From an uncultured Glaciecola sp. (lineage in GTDB: Bacteria > Pseudomonadota > Gammaproteobacteria > Enterobacterales > Alteromonadaceae), in NCBI GenBank assembly GCA_905479945.1, contig CAJQOP010000059.1, positions 62,001-126,000 on the forward strand: a stretch of 64,000 bases of DNA. Reading direction: 5' to 3'. Below, piece by piece: positions 10,046 through 20,616 of the stretch; the first letter of the stretch is position 1, and every line of letters starts with the position of its first letter. The position numbers and the translations under genes are program-made. A model generated the notes under the pieces. It had not been told where the DNA came from. It made no database searches and worked only from the letters and a program-made list of their open reading frames with translations.

Positions 10046-10436
10046 TAAACCTTAAATTTAGAATAAGGGCATACCCTAAGGTAGTCTTGCGTCAAGCATT
10101 TATGTTTCTTGAAAAATTCACCATTGAAGCCTCAATATGAGTTAAGTTTTAAAACCACTATTAAGACTTCAACCTTTTATCTAACGCTTGTATCGGCTGA
10201 AATTTGTAAACATGAACGAGTAGAAATACCTAATTGAACGTTGCGAAGTCATTTTTTGAATAGGAAAAGGTCAAAACTTGCTGGGTATGAAAGCATCTCT
10301 AACTAATCCTCTCAGTCTATTTGAGTTGCTAACTGTGCGAAGTCAGGCACCGAAAGCCTGCAGTTGGCACGAATGCCACTGGCAGAAATCATCCTATTGA
10401 TTTGCATTTGAAGCAGAAACTCAATTCCAAGACACG
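10046..10436. other. intergenic region with one imperfect hairpin
   Basis: No coding frame is convincing here. Between 10358 and 10385 a stem of about 11 bp with one bulge (CTGCAGTTGGCA against TGCCACTGGCAG) forms without a T-run. The porin promoter should lie near the left side, but I see no clear -35/-10 pair. Confidence 0.4.
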
Positions 10437-10516
10437 GCTGCACCTAATGGAGTGCAGCTGCATCTAATTGAGTGCAGCAGCGCCTAATGAAGTGCTGCTA
10501 TGGCTAATGAAATACA
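10437..10516. repeat. four 20-bp tandem repeats duplicating the 3' end of the MAPEG gene
   Basis: Four head-to-tail 20-base units start at 10437, 10457, 10477 and 10497. On the plus strand they share gctgca.ctaat.gagtgca. The rightmost unit contains the last codons and TAG stop of the minus-strand MAPEG gene, and each further unit carries the same CAT/AAT-TAG end. The gene's 3' terminus has therefore been copied several times downstream. Confidence 0.8.
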
Positions 10517-10935
10517 GCAATTGCCGCATGGATTGTCAAAGCAATGATGCACAGACTGGAGAGCATGAACAGAGAGAATCGAATCACAATCCGATTGAAG
10601 GTTACTTGAACCAAGCTATGCATGACTCGCAGAGCAACGTAAATCCAAGCTATTATTAGATTCAATCCATCTCCCATACCAAGCATGGCCAAAACCAAAC
10701 AAATTACATAAAAAAGTGTTGGTTCGGTGAGCAGATGATTGTAGTTTTGTGCTTTCCACTGGACTTTTGGAGGAAGTAACTCATCCAAGTCAGATCCCTT
10801 TCCACCAGTCATATTAGGAATATCGATCTTAGCTTTTTTCATCGCAGGAATGCGGGTGAAATACATCCACAGCCACACGATCATGGTCCACAATACTAGT
10901 GTGACGATGGGTTGAAAAATTGGACTATTTACCAT
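10504..10935 (-). CDS. MAPEG-family membrane protein
   Basis: A 143-residue integral membrane protein with about four hydrophobic segments. The central region WKAQNYNHLLTEPTLFYVI, then AWIYVALRVMHSLVQ, is the MAPEG signature (eicosanoid and glutathione metabolism membrane proteins). Bacterial MAPEG proteins are mostly uncharacterised, and some have glutathione transferase activity. AAGGA lies 9 bases before the ATG. It is on the same strand as the DapA-like gene upstream, separated by 144 bases without a clear terminator. Confidence 0.8.
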   Translation of the reverse strand: MVNSPIFQPIVTLVLWTMIVWLWMYFTRIPAMKKAKIDIPNMTGGKGSDLDELLPPKVQWKAQNYNHLLTEPTLFYVICLVLAMLGMGDGLNLIIAWIYVALRVMHSLVQVTFNRIVIRFSLFMLSSLCIIALTIHAAIAVFH

Positions 10936-12010: not shown

Positions 12011-12451
12011 TCAAGTCTCCCGCCATAACTTCTTTGTGCCCAATAAATAGTACATACCATAGACACAGCAGATTACTGAGCTTACAACCCAAAACGTCAT
12101 TGAATTTTGATGCACTACGGGGTCTGAAGTAAGAAACGGTGCAAATAGCCCTACAACACCACGAACAAGATAAACAGCAGTAATTAGAACCAAACAAGTC
12201 TTCAATAATGGCAACTTAACAATAAGGCCTGCACCTGACCAAGCATAAAGTCCCCACACAGCGAGAATAGAAGAAATTGCTATAGTGACGATTGTGGGAT
12301 AAGGGTCACCGGCAGAAGAAAGTTGCGCCATTCTCTCGCCTGCGCCAAAAAACAAATACCAATCAGGACCGCCAAAGATACAAGCGATATGCAACAAGGA
12401 TGCAAAAAAGCTCAAGATGCCAGCAATTATAAGTTGATAATTCCTTTGCAT
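12011..12451 (-). CDS. small four-helix membrane protein, cassette gene
   Basis: A 146-residue protein with four hydrophobic segments and charged ends, and no recognised domain. An AGAGGA Shine-Dalgarno lies 7 bases before the ATG. The start is only 17 bases downstream of the attC-like site at 12468-12572, the usual position for an integron cassette gene. No attC-like site follows it; instead the DapA-family gene begins 37 bases after its stop. It may be the last cassette or a gene stranded at the edge of the array. Confidence 0.65.
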   Translation of the reverse strand: MQRNYQLIIAGILSFFASLLHIACIFGGPDWYLFFGAGERMAQLSSAGDPYPTIVTIAISSILAVWGLYAWSGAGLIVKLPLLKTCLVLITAVYLVRGVVGLFAPFLTSDPVVHQNSMTFWVVSSVICCVYGMYYLLGTKKLWRET

Positions 12452-12467
12452 TTAAAATCCTCTTGTC

Positions 12468-12572
12468 ACATAACACCCAATTAACGGGCCTAAGCAAGGC
12501 GCGATAATGCCGAAAGTATGCCGTGTTTGTGTCCCAGCGACCGAAGCGAGTGCGTTAAATTGATTGTTATGT
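12468..12572 (-). repeat. attC-like recombination site 1 (105 bp)
   Basis: In minus-strand sense the site begins ACATAAC (R'') and ends GTTATGT (R'), exact complements. The inner boxes TTTAACG and CGTTAA can also pair, leaving a long variable middle. R'' supplies the TAA stop of the cupin gene, and R' lies just before the next gene, exactly as in integron cassettes. The match is by eye to the RYYYAAC / GTTRRRY consensus. Confidence 0.72.
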
Positions 12573-13055
12573 CCCGGGTTCAAAGAAAGGTTTCCCATCA
12601 GCAAGGTCATAGATTTCGATCTTCTCGCCAAGCCTAAGCATTCTTTTCCCTAGTGTTGGGAAATCGGCAATTTCGTGTTCTTTATTCTCTCCACCCATCA
12701 TGTAAACCAATTCTGTCTGAAATGGATTAGTCATGTTATGTGGAACTGACGGAGTCGGAAATGCAACAAAATCTCCCGGTAAAAGCTCATATTCTTCACC
12801 ATCAATCTGAGCTAAACCTTTACCTGAAATTACGTAAACCCATTCCTCTTCCGTGTGGTGAAGATGATAAGCAAACGATTCTTTTCCTGGTTCAATACGA
12901 ACTAGACTAACGCCAGTGCGAACCAAGCCAGCGAGTCGGCTCATATGAGTTCCAACAAGCTCCGATTTGGGATTCCATGGATGAGAAAACACACTCTTAT
13001 TTTCGTCTATTTCTGATCTTCTAAGTATATGCGGATACATTTTATCTTTATCCAT
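12567..13055 (-). CDS. cupin-domain protein, cassette gene
   Basis: A 162-residue protein with a double-stranded beta-helix (cupin_2) core. The first metal-binding motif appears as HLHHTEEEWVYVISG and the second as LLPGDFVAFP..VPHNM, with the metal-ligand His and Glu present. Such proteins may bind small ligands, sugars or act as isomerases/oxygenases; the function is not deducible. The ATG at 13055 has AGGA 6 bases upstream. Its stop codon lies inside the attC-like box, and the gene is preceded at 13 bases by a small membrane-protein gene, so the two may share one cassette. Confidence 0.8.
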   Translation of the reverse strand: MDKDKMYPHILRRSEIDENKSVFSHPWNPKSELVGTHMSRLAGLVRTGVSLVRIEPGKESFAYHLHHTEEEWVYVISGKGLAQIDGEEYELLPGDFVAFPTPSVPHNMTNPFQTELVYMMGGENKEHEIADFPTLGKRMLRLGEKIEIYDLADGKPFFEPGT

Positions 13056-13067
13056 CACATTTCCTTT

Positions 13068-13418
13068 TTATGTTGCAGGTTGCTGGCTACCCTCGAGTAC
13101 GGGGCTATAAATACCCCAGATGGCAAACGGTATTAATAATAATGACAACACAATAAGCCAAGTTAGTACTTTCATTTCATTACTGCTTTTGCGTTTACTA
13201 ACTCTAAATAATATAAAGGCCGAAATTAATCCTAAAATCCCCCAATAGCGATAGGAACCAATTAATAAAGATGTTTGAATAGGCAGCTCCGATTCAAAAG
13301 AATCGAATACAATTTCAAACTGTTGGATTAATATAAAAGCACCATACGCAAACACACTAAAATAAAGCGTTGAAATTGTAGCTGCTATTATTTGAAAATT
13401 ACTCTTAACTTGAACCAT
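13068..13418 (-). CDS. small membrane protein, cassette gene
   Basis: A 116-residue protein with three hydrophobic segments (near residues 8-28, 50-70 and 83-103) and no recognised domain. The ATG at 13418 was chosen because AAAAGGAG lies 8 bases upstream. An upstream in-frame ATG has no spacing for a ribosome site. The gene is 12 bases before the cupin gene and probably co-transcribed with it. Confidence 0.6.
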   Translation of the reverse strand: MVQVKSNFQIIAATISTLYFSVFAYGAFILIQQFEIVFDSFESELPIQTSLLIGSYRYWGILGLISAFILFRVSKRKSSNEMKVLTWLIVLSLLLIPFAIWGIYSPVLEGSQQPAT

Positions 13419-13528
13419 GAACTGCATCTCCTTTTGCAACTGGAGTAATCAGAGGATACTCTTTCTGCACATATAGTGGGCTGATTGTAAATTCATCGTA
13501 GCCGGGAGCGAAACTGCATGCGATAGCC

Positions 13529-13876
13529 TTACAATTTAATCCAAATAATATTATAAACAGTGTAGAATTGTGCACAAGCCTCCTGAGTAACTAACTCATT
13601 TAAACTTATTTCAATCGACACTCCGGCAGCAGAAAACTCAAGCTCCAGTATCTCCATGTAATACTTCAGACTAAAAATTTCACCTGAGCCCAATGTCTGG
13701 TTTTCTTCGATTAGCTTAAACGAGTTCGCATGGACAAAAATCACGGTTAAGCTAGGTTTATTTACTGGATGATCTTGTGTTTTTCCTTGAGCTGAACGAG
13801 AAACAGAAAATTGCGTAATGCTTGCTGTCTGTACTGATTTGTTAAGTATGCTCGTCCAAAACCTTGATTTGCGCAA
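13529..13876 (-). CDS. doubtful ORF overlapping a lipoprotein gene end
   Basis: A 115-codon frame starting at a TTG and overlapping the 3' end of the lipoprotein gene by 35 bases. The translation (for example SLTVIFVHANSF and EILELEFSAAGV) is not low-complexity and has no strong competing frame, so it may be real. I see no ribosome site and no family. It could be a genuine cassette gene with an unusual start, or a decayed gene. Confidence 0.3.
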   Translation of the reverse strand: MRKSRFWTSILNKSVQTASITQFSVSRSAQGKTQDHPVNKPSLTVIFVHANSFKLIEENQTLGSGEIFSLKYYMEILELEFSAAGVSIEISLNELVTQEACAQFYTVYNIIWIKL

Positions 13877-14303
13877 TGTCCATTACCCTGATGTGTGTTT
13901 GGTAATAATATTTGCCAGATGGTTTACCTTGTAAACCAAAATTAATTCTAATCCTTTTTGCCTGTCCAAAAACTGAAACGGATTTGTTTATAAAATACTC
14001 TTGTGGTGTTGCTCCATATTTTTCCACAAACAAGGGAACTAGACTAGGATGTATAGCCACTGTGACTGAGCGTTGGTCACGGTAGTCGAATTCTGTATTG
14101 AGGTATACAAACGGCCCTTGCTTCCCAGCCGCTTTGATTTTTAATACGTACTCGCCTTCGACACCATCCGGCGCAGATCCTGCCGCGCTTTTGATTATTT
14201 CCATAGTGTTGGAATAAGATATCACTAATTCCTTACTGGGTGCAGGCTGAGTTGTGGTGCATCCAGCTAAAACAAGAACGAGACTTAATAAAACTATTTT
14301 CAT
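13842..14303 (-). CDS. lipoprotein of unknown function, cassette gene
   Basis: A 153-residue protein with a short signal peptide and lipobox LAGC (Cys15), followed by a Thr/Pro linker and a compact, beta-rich domain. No known family is recognised. AGGAAATAAAAA precedes the ATG, and the attC-like R' box ends 20 bases upstream. The gene is therefore positioned as the first gene of a cassette. The mature protein should sit in the outer or inner membrane facing the periplasm. Confidence 0.7.
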   Translation of the reverse strand: MKIVLLSLVLVLAGCTTTQPAPSKELVISYSNTMEIIKSAAGSAPDGVEGEYVLKIKAAGKQGPFVYLNTEFDYRDQRSVTVAIHPSLVPLFVEKYGATPQEYFINKSVSVFGQAKRIRINFGLQGKPSGKYYYQTHIRVMDIAQIKVLDEHT

Positions 14304-14322
14304 TTTTTATTTCCTAATGAAT

Positions 14323-14398
14323 ACATAACACCATTTTAAGCCGAGGGCGCGTGCTCTTCGCGAACATCTAATCCATCTTCAAAATTTTGATTATATGT
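14323..14398 (-). repeat. attC-like recombination site 2 (76 bp)
   Basis: In minus-strand sense R' is GTTATGT at the downstream end, and an imperfect R'' (ACATATAATC) is at the upstream end. The inner L boxes are ATTTTGAAG and CTTAAAAT, complementary except for one unpaired G, which is the extrahelical base typical of attC sites. It sits 10 bases after the stop of the upstream cassette gene. Confidence 0.65.
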
Positions 14399-14408
14399 AC
14401 ATTTACAA

Positions 14409-14819
14409 CTAGTCAAAATAAGACAAACCCTGAATCAATTGTTCAACGGGAATAACAGTACCCGTTTGGTCGTCTATTGTGATTCCATTGCACTTTGTAT
14501 TCAATAAAATAGCTGTAGAAAATGCTGAAACGGCTTCACTTTCTCTTGCGCCAAAACGGAATTGGTATACTAGCCCATTAGTCAATTGTTGAGGCACAAG
14601 GACTTGAAAGAAATCTGGTAATTCTTTTACTGGAAATGAGTAAGACTCGACACCCGCAGCCTTTCCACTAACGGTCGCAGGCAGAAATCCGCTGTGAGTT
14701 TTTAGCTCAATCTCTTTTTCATACTGTATTGAATACCCAAGTTCATCTGAATATTCATTTAACTTAGTAGTCGTAGTATCGCAATCAAGCGCTAGAATTA
14801 CGAACAAACTCATAGACAT
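14409..14819 (-). CDS. small hypothetical protein, cassette gene
   Basis: A 136-residue soluble protein starting MSMSLFVILALDCDTTTTKL. It has no signal peptide and no membrane segments. I recall similar short proteins beginning MSLFVLL.LDCDT from marine gammaproteobacterial cassettes, but give no function. AGGA lies 7 bases before the ATG, 43 bases downstream of attC-like site 3. The stop is followed by attC-like site 2, so this is a classic one-gene cassette. Confidence 0.65.
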   Translation of the reverse strand: MSMSLFVILALDCDTTTTKLNEYSDELGYSIQYEKEIELKTHSGFLPATVSGKAAGVESYSFPVKELPDFFQVLVPQQLTNGLVYQFRFGARESEAVSAFSTAILLNTKCNGITIDDQTGTVIPVEQLIQGLSYFD

Positions 14820-14861
14820 GGAGACATCCTTTCCTTTTCAGAGCTTAAATTTTCAAAGTAC

Positions 14862-14927
14862 ATATAACACCCGATTAAGCGGCGTTGGCCGCTCTTGCCA
14901 ATGTCCGTCTTCAAGTATTTGTTATTC
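14862..14927 (-). repeat. attC-like recombination site 3 (66 bp)
   Basis: In minus-strand sense it runs from GAATAAC (R'') to GTTATAT (R'). The inner L boxes are ACTTGAAG and GCTTAAT, and there is a central stem TTGGC/GCCAA. The TAA within R'' is the stop codon of the upstream gene, as in site 1. Orientation and spacing agree with the other two sites. Confidence 0.7.
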
Positions 14928-15287
14928 ACGTCTTGCCACAAGCTCTTTACATTCGGGACATTGCACATATTGGGTGTTACCCACTAAGCAATTATCTAAA
15001 GCTATTTGCAAACATTCGTTTGGAGCGAGATCAGTGCAACATGATGGACAAATCACACCGTTTTTACTATGCCACCTGCTCATAGTAATTATTATGTAAA
15101 GAGCTAGTAACACAAGTAGACTCAAACCTGCTAAAAACTCATTTTTACCAAGTAAAAAACCAAGAACTATACTTACGGTAAGTAAAATAACAAAAAACGC
15201 TAATATTATCCGGTCACGCTGAACTGTAGCTCGACTATATGTGGCTATAGCTATATTCAATTCATCAGCATTCATAATTCTACCCAT
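14922..15287 (-). CDS. membrane protein with C-terminal zinc ribbon, cassette gene
   Basis: A 121-residue protein. Two hydrophobic segments lie at about 27-45 and 50-69. They are followed by a cytoplasmic-type zinc ribbon formed by CPSC (about residues 80-83) and CPEC (about 110-113). Function unknown. The start could also be the ATG four codons in (MNADEL), and neither has a clear ribosome site. The stop codon is supplied by the attC-like R'' box. No attC-like or attI-like site is seen upstream, so this may be the first cassette of the cluster. Confidence 0.62.
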   Translation of the reverse strand: MGRIMNADELNIAIATYSRATVQRDRIILAFFVILLTVSIVLGFLLGKNEFLAGLSLLVLLALYIIITMSRWHSKNGVICPSCCTDLAPNECLQIALDNCLVGNTQYVQCPECKELVARRE

Positions 15288-15423: not shown

Positions 15424-15441
15424 TACTATGAATTCATAGTA
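15424..15441. promoter_or_regulatory. 18-bp perfect palindrome
   Basis: TACTATGAATTCATAGTA is a perfect 18-base palindrome in the gap between the cassette cluster and the phosphatase-like lipoprotein gene. It is a candidate dimeric-repressor operator; no regulator is identified. Confidence 0.4.
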
Positions 15442-15479
15442 ACAACGGTATTTAAATTGTCATCAAACACAGGTGAAGT

Positions 15480-15566
15480 ATGAGCTACAGCCTGTTATTT
15501 GGCTTTGTAATATGTGTGTTACTGAGACTTTTAAGCAACACACATAGCAAAAACACCAAAAATTAA
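15480..15566 (+). CDS. possible 28-aa membrane micro-protein
   Basis: ATG at 15480 with AGGTG 4 bases upstream opens a 28-codon frame (MSYSLLFGFVICVLLRLL then a polar NTHSKNTKN tail), a single membrane segment with positively charged C-terminus. Nothing else confirms it. Confidence 0.25.
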   Translation: MSYSLLFGFVICVLLRLLSNTHSKNTKN

Positions 15567-17368: not shown

Positions 17369-18724
17369 ATGAAGATAGTCATCGTGTTGATCTTGCTGGT
17401 AATAGCTACCGTTGTATTTCATTTTGTAAGCCCCTGGTATTTCACTCCCATAGCCTCTAATTGGAGCAGTATTGATGATACGATCGATCTGACTTTTGTA
17501 ATTACTGGTGCTGTCTTCGTGCTTGTGAACTTATTTCTCGCCTACTGCATCTATCGTTATCGCCATAATATAAAAACCCGTGCTCACTACGAGCCTGAAA
17601 ATAAGAAGCTCGAAATTGGATTATCGGTTGTTACAACCATCGGCGTTGCAGCAATGCTTGCCCCTGGCCTTTTTATCTGGTCCGAATTTGTAAATGTCCC
17701 TAAAGAAGCACACTTTGTAGAAGCCGTTGGTCAACAGTGGCAATGGAGCTTTCGTGCACCCGGAAAAGATGAAGTTTTAGGTAAGGTCGACTCTCGTTTT
17801 ATTAATGAATCTAATCCTTTTGGTATAGATCCTAAGGACCAAGCTGGACAAGATGATGTCCTAGTATTTGGTAATGAATTGCATCTACCTTTGGATAAAC
17901 CAGTTAAGTTGTTATTGCGATCTAAAGATGTTTTGCATAATTTTGCAGTTCCGCAGTTCAGGGTGAAGATGGACCTTGTACCCGGAATGGTTACGCACCT
18001 CTGGTTGACCCCAACCCGAACCGGTAGTTTTGAAATTCTGTGTCAGGAGCTCTGTGGTATTGCGCATTTTGTCATGCGTGGTCGAGTAATTGTCGATTCA
18101 GAAGAAGACTATGAAACTTGGCTAACAACTCAACCCACGTATGCTGAAACGCAAAATAAAGTAGTTGGTGACCCTGCGCTCGGTCAAGCTTCCTATGCAG
18201 TATGTGCCGCTTGTCATGGTGCCCAGGGCGAAGGCAATATTGCATTAAATGCGCCTAATCTCAATGGCATGTCTGATTGGTATTTGGCACGGCAACTCGA
18301 CTATTACAAAAAAGGGGTAAGGGGCGCCCATAAAGATGATCCCTTAGGCCAACAGATGAAAGCGATGGCAGCAACTCTGGTAACTGATAAAGCAGTGAGT
18401 GATGTCGCCGCATACATCCAAACTCTGCCTGATATTGTTCCAAAAGCGACAATTGAAGGTGACGTCGAGCGGGGTCATTCATATTTTGTGACTTGTGGAA
18501 CTTGTCATGGGGCAAAAGGAGAAGGCAAATTTGGTGTGAATGCACCACGCCTTGCTGGTCAACACGATTGGTATTTAAAACAACAAATTATGAACTTCAA
18601 AAGCGGTGTTCGCGGTAATCATAAGGATGATTTATATGGTGTCCAAATGGTGCTTATGTCGAGAATATTGCCAAATGAGCAGGCTATAGATGATGTCCTT
18701 GCCTATATTAATACTTTCAATTAG
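17369..18724 (+). CDS. coxB: cytochrome c oxidase subunit II fused to two cytochrome c domains
   Basis: A 451-residue caa3-type subunit II. Hydrophobic segments lie near 1-20, 38-62 and 83-105. The periplasmic cupredoxin domain carries the CuA ligands His190, Cys225, Glu227, Cys229, His233 and Met236 (CQELCGIAHFVM). It is followed by two paralogous cytochrome c domains with heme sites CAACH (279-283) and CGTCH (376-380). Each is followed by a GVRG.HKDD segment, so the second arose by duplication. The protein accepts electrons and passes them to CoxA. It is the first gene of the operon. Confidence 0.93.
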   Translation: MKIVIVLILLVIATVVFHFVSPWYFTPIASNWSSIDDTIDLTFVITGAVFVLVNLFLAYCIYRYRHNIKTRAHYEPENKKLEIGLSVVTTIGVAAMLAPGLFIWSEFVNVPKEAHFVEAVGQQWQWSFRAPGKDEVLGKVDSRFINESNPFGIDPKDQAGQDDVLVFGNELHLPLDKPVKLLLRSKDVLHNFAVPQFRVKMDLVPGMVTHLWLTPTRTGSFEILCQELCGIAHFVMRGRVIVDSEEDYETWLTTQPTYAETQNKVVGDPALGQASYAVCAACHGAQGEGNIALNAPNLNGMSDWYLARQLDYYKKGVRGAHKDDPLGQQMKAMAATLVTDKAVSDVAAYIQTLPDIVPKATIEGDVERGHSYFVTCGTCHGAKGEGKFGVNAPRLAGQHDWYLKQQIMNFKSGVRGNHKDDLYGVQMVLMSRILPNEQAIDDVLAYINTFN

Positions 18725-18792
18725 TCCAAGCAGAATACAGGTAGTGAACAATAAATAACAAAACCAATAAGCAGTAATAAAGGGAGATATGA

Positions 18793-20616
18793 ATGTCATA
18801 TACAGCAATTGCCGATCAGCCCGAAGGCGAATCACATGATCCTGATACCTTTATAACAAAATACATCTACAGCCAGGACCACAAAGTTATTGCTATTCAA
18901 TATACGATAACTGCAATCGTCGTTGGGCTAGTGGCATTAGTGCTCTCTGGATTGATGAGGCTGCAGCTAGGTTTCCCTGATACTTTTTCCTTTATTGACC
19001 CTACAAACTATTACCAGTTTATTACCATGCATGGCATGATCATGGTGATTTATTTATTAACCGCTTTACTCCTTGGCGGCTTTGGTAACTACCTTATTCC
19101 CTTAATGGTAGGCGCTAGAGATATGGTATTTCCATTTTTGAATATGCTGAGTTTTTGGTTTTACTTTGTATCCGTTTTAGTGTTAATGGCGAGTTTCTTT
19201 GTCACCGGTGGGCCGACCGGGGCCGGCTGGACCCTCTATCCGCCGCAGGCTATTCTTGAGGGCACACCTGGCTCTGGCTGGGGCATCATATTGATGCTTA
19301 TATCTCTGACTATTTTTATTATTGCCTTTACCATGGGCGGACTCAATTACGTAACTACTGTCTTGCAAGCTAGAGCGCGGGGTATGTCATTGATGCGCAT
19401 GCCGCTTACTATTTGGGGGATATTTGTTGCAACCATTTTAGGCTTGTTAGCATTTCCGGCTCTTTTGGTTAGTGCCATAATGATGTTGCTGGATAAAATC
19501 GTTGGTACCAGCTTCTTTATGCCTGCTGTGGTTTCGATGGGTGAACAGCTGAACTATTCAGGTGGCAGCCCAATATTATTTCAGCATTTGTTTTGGTTTT
19601 TCGGTCACCCCGAAGTTTACATCGTTGCCCTACCCGCATTTGGTATGGTCTCCGACGTATTAGCTGTGCATGCGAGAAAAAATATATTTGGATATCGAAT
19701 GATGGTTTGGGCCATAGTTGCCATAGGTGGCCTCAGCTTTATTGTTTGGGCACATCATATGTATGTCAGCGGCATGAACCCCTACTTTGGATTTTTCTTT
19801 GCCACCACGACCTTGATCATTGCAGTACCCACAGCCCTCAAAGTTTACAATTGGGTACTAACGCTTTATCGAGGAAATATACACTTAAGGCCACCCATGC
19901 TATTTGCTATTGGCTTTATCTTCACGTTTACACACGGAGGCCTTACCGGCTTATTTCTGGGTAATGTGGTTGTGGATCTGCCGCTGTCCGACACTTATTT
20001 TGTGGTGGCACATTTCCATATGGTTATGGGTGTATCCCCTATTATGGTGCTCTTTGCTGCCATTTATCACTGGTTTCCTCTGGTCAGTGGTAAGCATCTC
20101 AATGATAAATTGAGTAGACTTCATTTCTGGATAACCTTTCTCGGTACTTATGCTATTTACCTGCCGATGCATTACCTCGGATTTTTAGGTGTGCCTCGTC
20201 GCTATTACGCCATGGGGGACACCGATTTCATACCGGCCTCTGCTCAAACGCTCAATGCGAACATTACTGTTGCAGCATTGATTGTTGGCTTAGCACAGCT
20301 AATTTTCATTTATAACGTCATCAGAAGTTTGTCAAAAGGAGAAAAATCAGAACCCAACCCTTGGCAAGCCACATCTTTGGAATGGCAGACGCCCGATTTT
20401 CCACCTAAACATGGTAACTGGGGCAAGACATTACCCGTGGTATATCGCTGGGCCTATGACTTCAGTGTGCCAGGAGCCAAGTACGACTTTATCCCACAAA
20501 ATGTAGCCCAAGAAGACGTTGAACCAGAAGACCTTGAACGAGAAGGCCTTGATCAAGACGGCGGTGATGGAGAAATCAGCAGCGAAGGTGTGGAGAGCAT
20601 GGGGGATAAAACATGA
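18793..20616 (+). CDS. ctaD: cytochrome c oxidase subunit I
   Basis: A 607-residue heme-copper oxidase catalytic subunit with about 12 membrane helices. Ligands visible are His80 (heme a), the His272-Tyr276 pair in GHPEVY, His321/His322 for CuB, and His407/His409 (heme a3 and heme a). The Glu in GHPEVY and the conserved PTALKVYNW segment mark a type A oxidase. The last 40 residues form a very acidic tail (EDVEPEDLEREGLD). GGGAGAT lies before the ATG. The 3' end overlaps the next start by 4 bases (ATGA). Confidence 0.95.
   Translation: MSYTAIADQPEGESHDPDTFITKYIYSQDHKVIAIQYTITAIVVGLVALVLSGLMRLQLGFPDTFSFIDPTNYYQFITMHGMIMVIYLLTALLLGGFGNYLIPLMVGARDMVFPFLNMLSFWFYFVSVLVLMASFFVTGGPTGAGWTLYPPQAILEGTPGSGWGIILMLISLTIFIIAFTMGGLNYVTTVLQARARGMSLMRMPLTIWGIFVATILGLLAFPALLVSAIMMLLDKIVGTSFFMPAVVSMGEQLNYSGGSPILFQHLFWFFGHPEVYIVALPAFGMVSDVLAVHARKNIFGYRMMVWAIVAIGGLSFIVWAHHMYVSGMNPYFGFFFATTTLIIAVPTALKVYNWVLTLYRGNIHLRPPMLFAIGFIFTFTHGGLTGLFLGNVVVDLPLSDTYFVVAHFHMVMGVSPIMVLFAAIYHWFPLVSGKHLNDKLSRLHFWITFLGTYAIYLPMHYLGFLGVPRRYYAMGDTDFIPASAQTLNANITVAALIVGLAQLIFIYNVIRSLSKGEKSEPNPWQATSLEWQTPDFPPKHGNWGKTLPVVYRWAYDFSVPGAKYDFIPQNVAQEDVEPEDLEREGLDQDGGDGEISSEGVESMGDKT

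Follow-up and report, generated by a model that had tools for sequence, protein, structure and literature searches.

We find that positions 12011-15287 of the window, that is, of the whole 64,000-nucleotide stretch of DNA analysed here, are almost certainly a CALIN, a cluster of attC sites lacking an integron integrase. The window comprises positions 62001-126000 of contig C59 of the host genome (G000), and the array lies about 55 kb from the nearer end of this 132.8-kb contig. The class assignment follows from the location of the array inside a contig of about 133 kb that is without an integrase match: a genome-wide profile search with TIGR02249 gave 25 matches at E≤10, all of them on contigs other than C59. 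A sequence-only reading of the window had described a CALIN-like array with no integrase, and its class is borne out over the whole contig. Given the same result, the array is not a complete integron, composed of integrase, attI and cassettes.

Small genes, about four to six in number, make up the array; they lie on the minus strand, and A, B and E each have an attC site after them. The three attC sites share one orientation, on the same strand as the genes, and fall within 2,460 bp. Along the minus strand, the order is A, attC 14927-14862, B, attC 14396-14323, C, open frames and D, E, attC 12572-12468, F. The features are given below; bit scores and E-values of attC sites are those of R2, a covariance model of the full site.

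14922-15287, minus strand: cassette gene A, 121 aa, with a membrane segment and CxxC pairs (by reading)
14862-14927, minus strand: attC site 3, 66 bp, R'' GAATAAC, R' GTTATAT, extra G in L''; 25.2 bits, E 7e-4
14409-14819, minus strand: cassette gene B, 136 aa, with homologues beside attC in two replicons
14323-14396, minus strand: attC site 2, 74 bp, degenerate R'', intact R' GTTATGT, extra G in L''; 26.7 bits, E 3e-4
13842-14303, minus strand: cassette gene C, 153 aa, lipoprotein-like by reading
13838-13847, minus strand: left half of an attC at the end of gene C, R'' ACTTAAC then AAA (by sequence)
13529-13876, minus strand: open frame overlapping the end of C, an ORF only, possibly the remains of a truncated gene
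13068-13427, minus strand: gene D, a 119-aa membrane protein by reading, preceded by AAAAGGAG (sequence and translation)
12567-13058, minus strand: cassette gene E, cupin PF07883 (Pfam E 3e-17), with its TAA stop in the R'' box
12468-12572, minus strand: attC site 1, 105 bp, R'' ACATAAC, R' GTTATGT, extra T in L''; 40.7 bits, E 7e-8; the best preserved
12011-12451, minus strand: gene F, a 146-aa membrane protein by reading, with attC site 1 directly before it and none after

An attC site is marked by complementary R'' and R' boxes, with TAAC and GTTA, and by paired L'' and L' boxes with an extra base in L''; these hallmarks are also seen in the arrays from which our model was trained. Candidate sites were collected by box pairing, giving a pool of 147 from 20 integrase-adjacent stretches in other genomes of the order and from the host's C95 locus (L009), the last of which contributed 2. 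For R2, 40 full-length sites from 15 of these 20 stretches served as the training set, which contained no site of the window or of the host; 6 of the 40 came from congeners (five from G012, one from G010). With filters switched off, the model was applied to both strands of the 64,000 bases; its E-values are rough, the calibration being short. It returned nine matches at E≤10, and the three attC-like sites of the sequence-only reading rank first to third among them, all on the minus strand, so that the covariance-model search which that reading had named as a check recovers all three. The fourth match reaches only 13.6 bits (E 0.62). It lies at 15437-15524 on the opposite strand, just upstream of gene A, is probably due to chance, and was not accepted as a further attC.

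Applied to six loci that had no part in its training, R2 scored 42 matches at E≤1 with 18.9-71.3 bits, a range that takes in the window sites. As a control, 33.6 kb of the host genome outside the arrays (L106, L011, L010 and L012) yielded no match at E≤1. The score of site 3 is not fully independent, because this site is 82% identical to one 66-bp training site from a congener. We conclude that the three window sites are attC by sequence and, as far as the folds described below bear it out, by structure.

Judged by their boxes, site 1 has the attC pattern fully, site 3 has it with weaker boxes, and site 2 has it only in part. The complementary R boxes ascribed to all three sites hold for site 1, less strongly for site 3, and only in part for site 2, whose R'' reads ATATAAT instead of xxxTAAC. 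An extrahelical G had been ascribed to one site; in fact sites 2 and 3 both carry an extra G in L'' (TTGAAG opposite CTTAA), and the extra base of site 1 is a T. In the lowest-energy DNA folds, the R boxes are paired in site 1 and in part in site 3, and the fold of site 2 is not an attC hairpin. Two sites were correctly said to supply the stop codon of the upstream gene: the TAA of R'' ends genes E (at 12567) and A (at 14922). The stop of gene B lies 12 bases before site 2, and the TAA stop of gene C is inside the lone R'' box. The start codons reported 17-43 bases after each site are also present, with measured distances from R' to start of 16, 19 and 42 bases.

Simpler searches performed poorly on these sites. 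A strict RYYYAAC/GTTRRRY scan missed all three, because ACATAAC has an A at the third place of R''. Looser box scans recovered only site 1 of the three, and found 29 pairs in the window versus 11-26 in ten shuffled windows; a third box scan had site 1 among four pairs and missed the other two. An earlier covariance model, R1, built from the joined core halves only, found none of the three and was replaced by R2. R1 also missed the host's two C95 sites, yet it found three sites of 69-75 bases on contig C75. Its negative result was taken as a fault of its short allowed length, though the window sites of 66 and 74 bases were missed as well.

The sequence-only reading had named as a further check the search for an integrase elsewhere in the genome, and one is found: a single match in the genome exceeds the TIGR02249 integron-integrase cut-off, on contig C95, at 433.6 bits versus 265. 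This integrase neighbours what read as ATP synthase genes, and two attC matches come after it, close to the end of the contig. Contig C75 opens within an array of 15 attC matches at E≤0.1, all on the plus strand, and we infer that it continues C95. The two short window sites resemble short sites of C75, with best identities of 73% and, for site 3, 79%; site 1 shares 72-74% identity with sites in the array of a congener and in the integron of the host itself. The R2 search of the host genome scored 150 of 663 candidates, so that attC sites elsewhere in it may be undercounted. The attC types of the window array and of the chromosomal integron (C95, perhaps with C75) are related, and in both the genes are small and, by reading, mostly unrecognised, but the integron has an integrase and more sites and lies on a separate contig. 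As separate observations, the C75 array holds two nearly identical toxin-antitoxin-like gene pairs (L104 2865-3348 and 4946-5441, by reading), and contig C124 has a single attC match (L105 8946-9020, plus strand, 34.8 bits) about 2 kb from weak tyrosine-recombinase matches with E-values of 6e-5 and 0.03, under the integron cut-off.

The genes of the array had been described as small, on one strand and mostly unrecognised. This description stands: all are on the minus strand, and of the genes tested only E has a Pfam match over the cut-off, genes A and D having neither such a match nor a plasmid match. Nothing was found at E≤0.01 in PADLOC (7 proteins) or PHROGs (6 proteins), and the open frame 13529-13876 gave no family in PHROGs, PADLOC or NCBIfam and no plasmid match. 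Compared among species only, the cassette content is not fixed: of 95 other genomes of the order, at E≤1e-5, 12 have C, 27 have F and none has A or B; the cupin gene E is missing from all 12 congeners at E≤1e-10. Relatives of E occur in 4 of 59 genomes, at 28-29% identity. For A, D and E, no homologue linked to an attC came to light.

Genes B, C and F, on the other hand, occur elsewhere as cassettes or cassette-sized units. Homologues of B, 52% and 33% identical, are present in replicons of Pseudoalteromonas sp. Bsw20308 and Vibrio campbellii, and in both of the two plasmid-collection records found an attC follows the B homologue within 8 bases; a viral-contig search gave no relative of B. Over 485 bp, the unit of gene C (13838-14322) shares 85% identity with DNA of the congener G003; the match ends near the cassette edges, and the flanks are unmatched. 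This congener has no integrase match at E≤1e-60. At the end of the unit in the window, a matching L'/R' half for the half-site 13838-13847 was looked for and none was seen; at the corresponding place G003 has GCCTAAC...GTTAGCT, a weak model match of 14.8 bits (E 0.51).

The case of gene F is more equivocal. In a genome-collection scan, among the best 80 of 349 relatives, an attC at E≤0.1 lies within 100 bp of F in 11 loci, and 69 loci have no attC within that distance; all 42 attC matches at E≤1 in the F loci are on the strand of F. The box GTTATGT precedes F at near-window spacing in 3 of 9 loci whose edges were read (L109, L111 and L113). The plasmid collection held F in five records, of which two were examined: in a Shewanella xiamenensis plasmid the F homologue sits between two attC matches (one weak, E 0.08) with an integron integrase adjoining, and in a Pseudoalteromonas xiamenensis record (L101) the nearest attC match is 705 bases from F. 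Taken together, B or F homologues adjoin attC in Shewanella, Pseudoalteromonas, Vibrio and Alteromonas. F may nevertheless be an ordinary chromosomal gene adjoining the array rather than its last cassette, because the F of Alteromonas oceanisediminis, 81% identical and with a similar 3' end, has no attC that we could find, and because a relative, G049 (L195 1011-1911), has an F homologue followed on the same strand by a MAPEG-like gene. The latter is 30% identical to the MAPEG gene at 10504-10935 of the window, which stands two genes after F with a dihydrodipicolinate-synthase-like gene between them.

The array is partly decayed. The R'' box of site 2 is degenerate, half an attC remains at 13838-13847, and R2 finds in the window no attC after gene F, the last gene of the array; the open frames without known relatives at 13.4-13.9 kb are a further sign. 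No full attC lies between 12572 and 14323, and hence genes C to E have no full attC between them. Most likely the cluster comes from the same cassette pool as the host chromosomal integron and is now eroding. There is about an even chance that it is a displaced or separate integron remnant, whose integrase was lost or cut off by rearrangement and which has lost attC sites since. The signs of decay just listed argue for such an origin, as does the likeness of the two short sites to those of C75; against it, C59 has no integrase match, and no relative with the ancestral arrangement was seen. Tentatively, the host integrase may instead have placed the cassettes at a chromosomal target of the attG type, distinct from both attC and attI. 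The host does bear a full-length integrase, and the window site types resemble those of the host arrays. An off-target insertion should, however, leave a terminal attC with its R' abutting host DNA, and here F is followed by none. Insertion of the attG type is in print, as cited in the available part of PMC12444791.

A misjoining of main-array cassettes into contig C59 during assembly is very improbable: the genome is a draft of 132 contigs, 90.5% complete, and similar attC sites complicate assembly (available part of PMC9024848), but the array's distance from the contig end and the mutual differences among its three sites speak against it. It is scarcely credible that attC is mimicked here by chance or by other hairpins, such as terminators or interspersed palindromes. 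The scores of sites 2 and 3 are modest, both sites escaped the box scans and R1, and box pairs are frequent by chance; yet the R2 ranking, the shared orientation and the occurrence of neighbour-gene homologues beside attC in other genera all count against mimicry, and no Rfam match reaches the gathering score except two tRNAs.

The C95 integrase might work in trans on the better-preserved sites 1 and 3, whose bottom strands would be its folded substrates, and the cassettes between these sites might be excised or shuffled by it. Site 2 would probably be weak for recombination and, with no attI nearby, new cassettes would enter only at an attC. It is unlikely that the cluster is still a living satellite of the host integron, its cassettes moved by the distant integrase; were it so, the genome would keep two exchanging cassette stores.

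Orphan cassette clusters are common and already described, and the window array is a well-supported ordinary example, which changes nothing in what is known about integrons. The available part of the IntegronFinder 2.0 paper (PMC9024848) counts 2961 CALIN and 2760 complete integrons, with a default CALIN of two or more attC sites and an average of almost 6. The window agrees with this class in having three same-orientation sites in 2.5 kb, small genes and a contig without an integrase match, and it differs in having three sites rather than almost 6 and in its visible partial decay. In Xanthomonas, according to the available part of PMC12444791, CALINs lie away from the main (ilvD) integron in about half of the genomes. 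The arrangement there is the same, with an integron at one place and attC clusters at others, but those places recur among species, whereas the window array is known from one strain. What the array offers is a checkable orphan cassette cluster in a genome that also bears a full-length integron integrase. B and F, families without a name in the libraries searched, are now tied to attC in several genera, cassette unit C is tied to two congeners with differing surroundings, and attC decay is visible at different stages within one short array.

The genes that flank the array are patchy in the genus. Of 29 other genomes, 7 have the endonuclease-like flank gene and 6 the dihydrodipicolinate-synthase-like gene (E≤1e-20). 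We found no empty site: none of 189 compared loci held genes of both flanks, the loci reaching, as a rule, 1.5-2 kb beyond the match, so that an empty site farther away would be missed. Two of the 189 loci held more than one window protein, namely L126 (C and F) and L195 (F and MAPEG). Next to the array, at 17369-20616 on the plus strand, are cytochrome oxidase genes (by reading, subunit II with extra cytochrome c domains, and subunit I); at E≤1e-60 the subunit II gene is missing from all 12 congeners, and 1 of 29 other genomes has it. On the other side, near the end of the MAPEG-family gene, positions 10435-10500 hold a short imperfect tandem repeat of about 21 bases (CTAATGGAGTGCAGCTGC-like).
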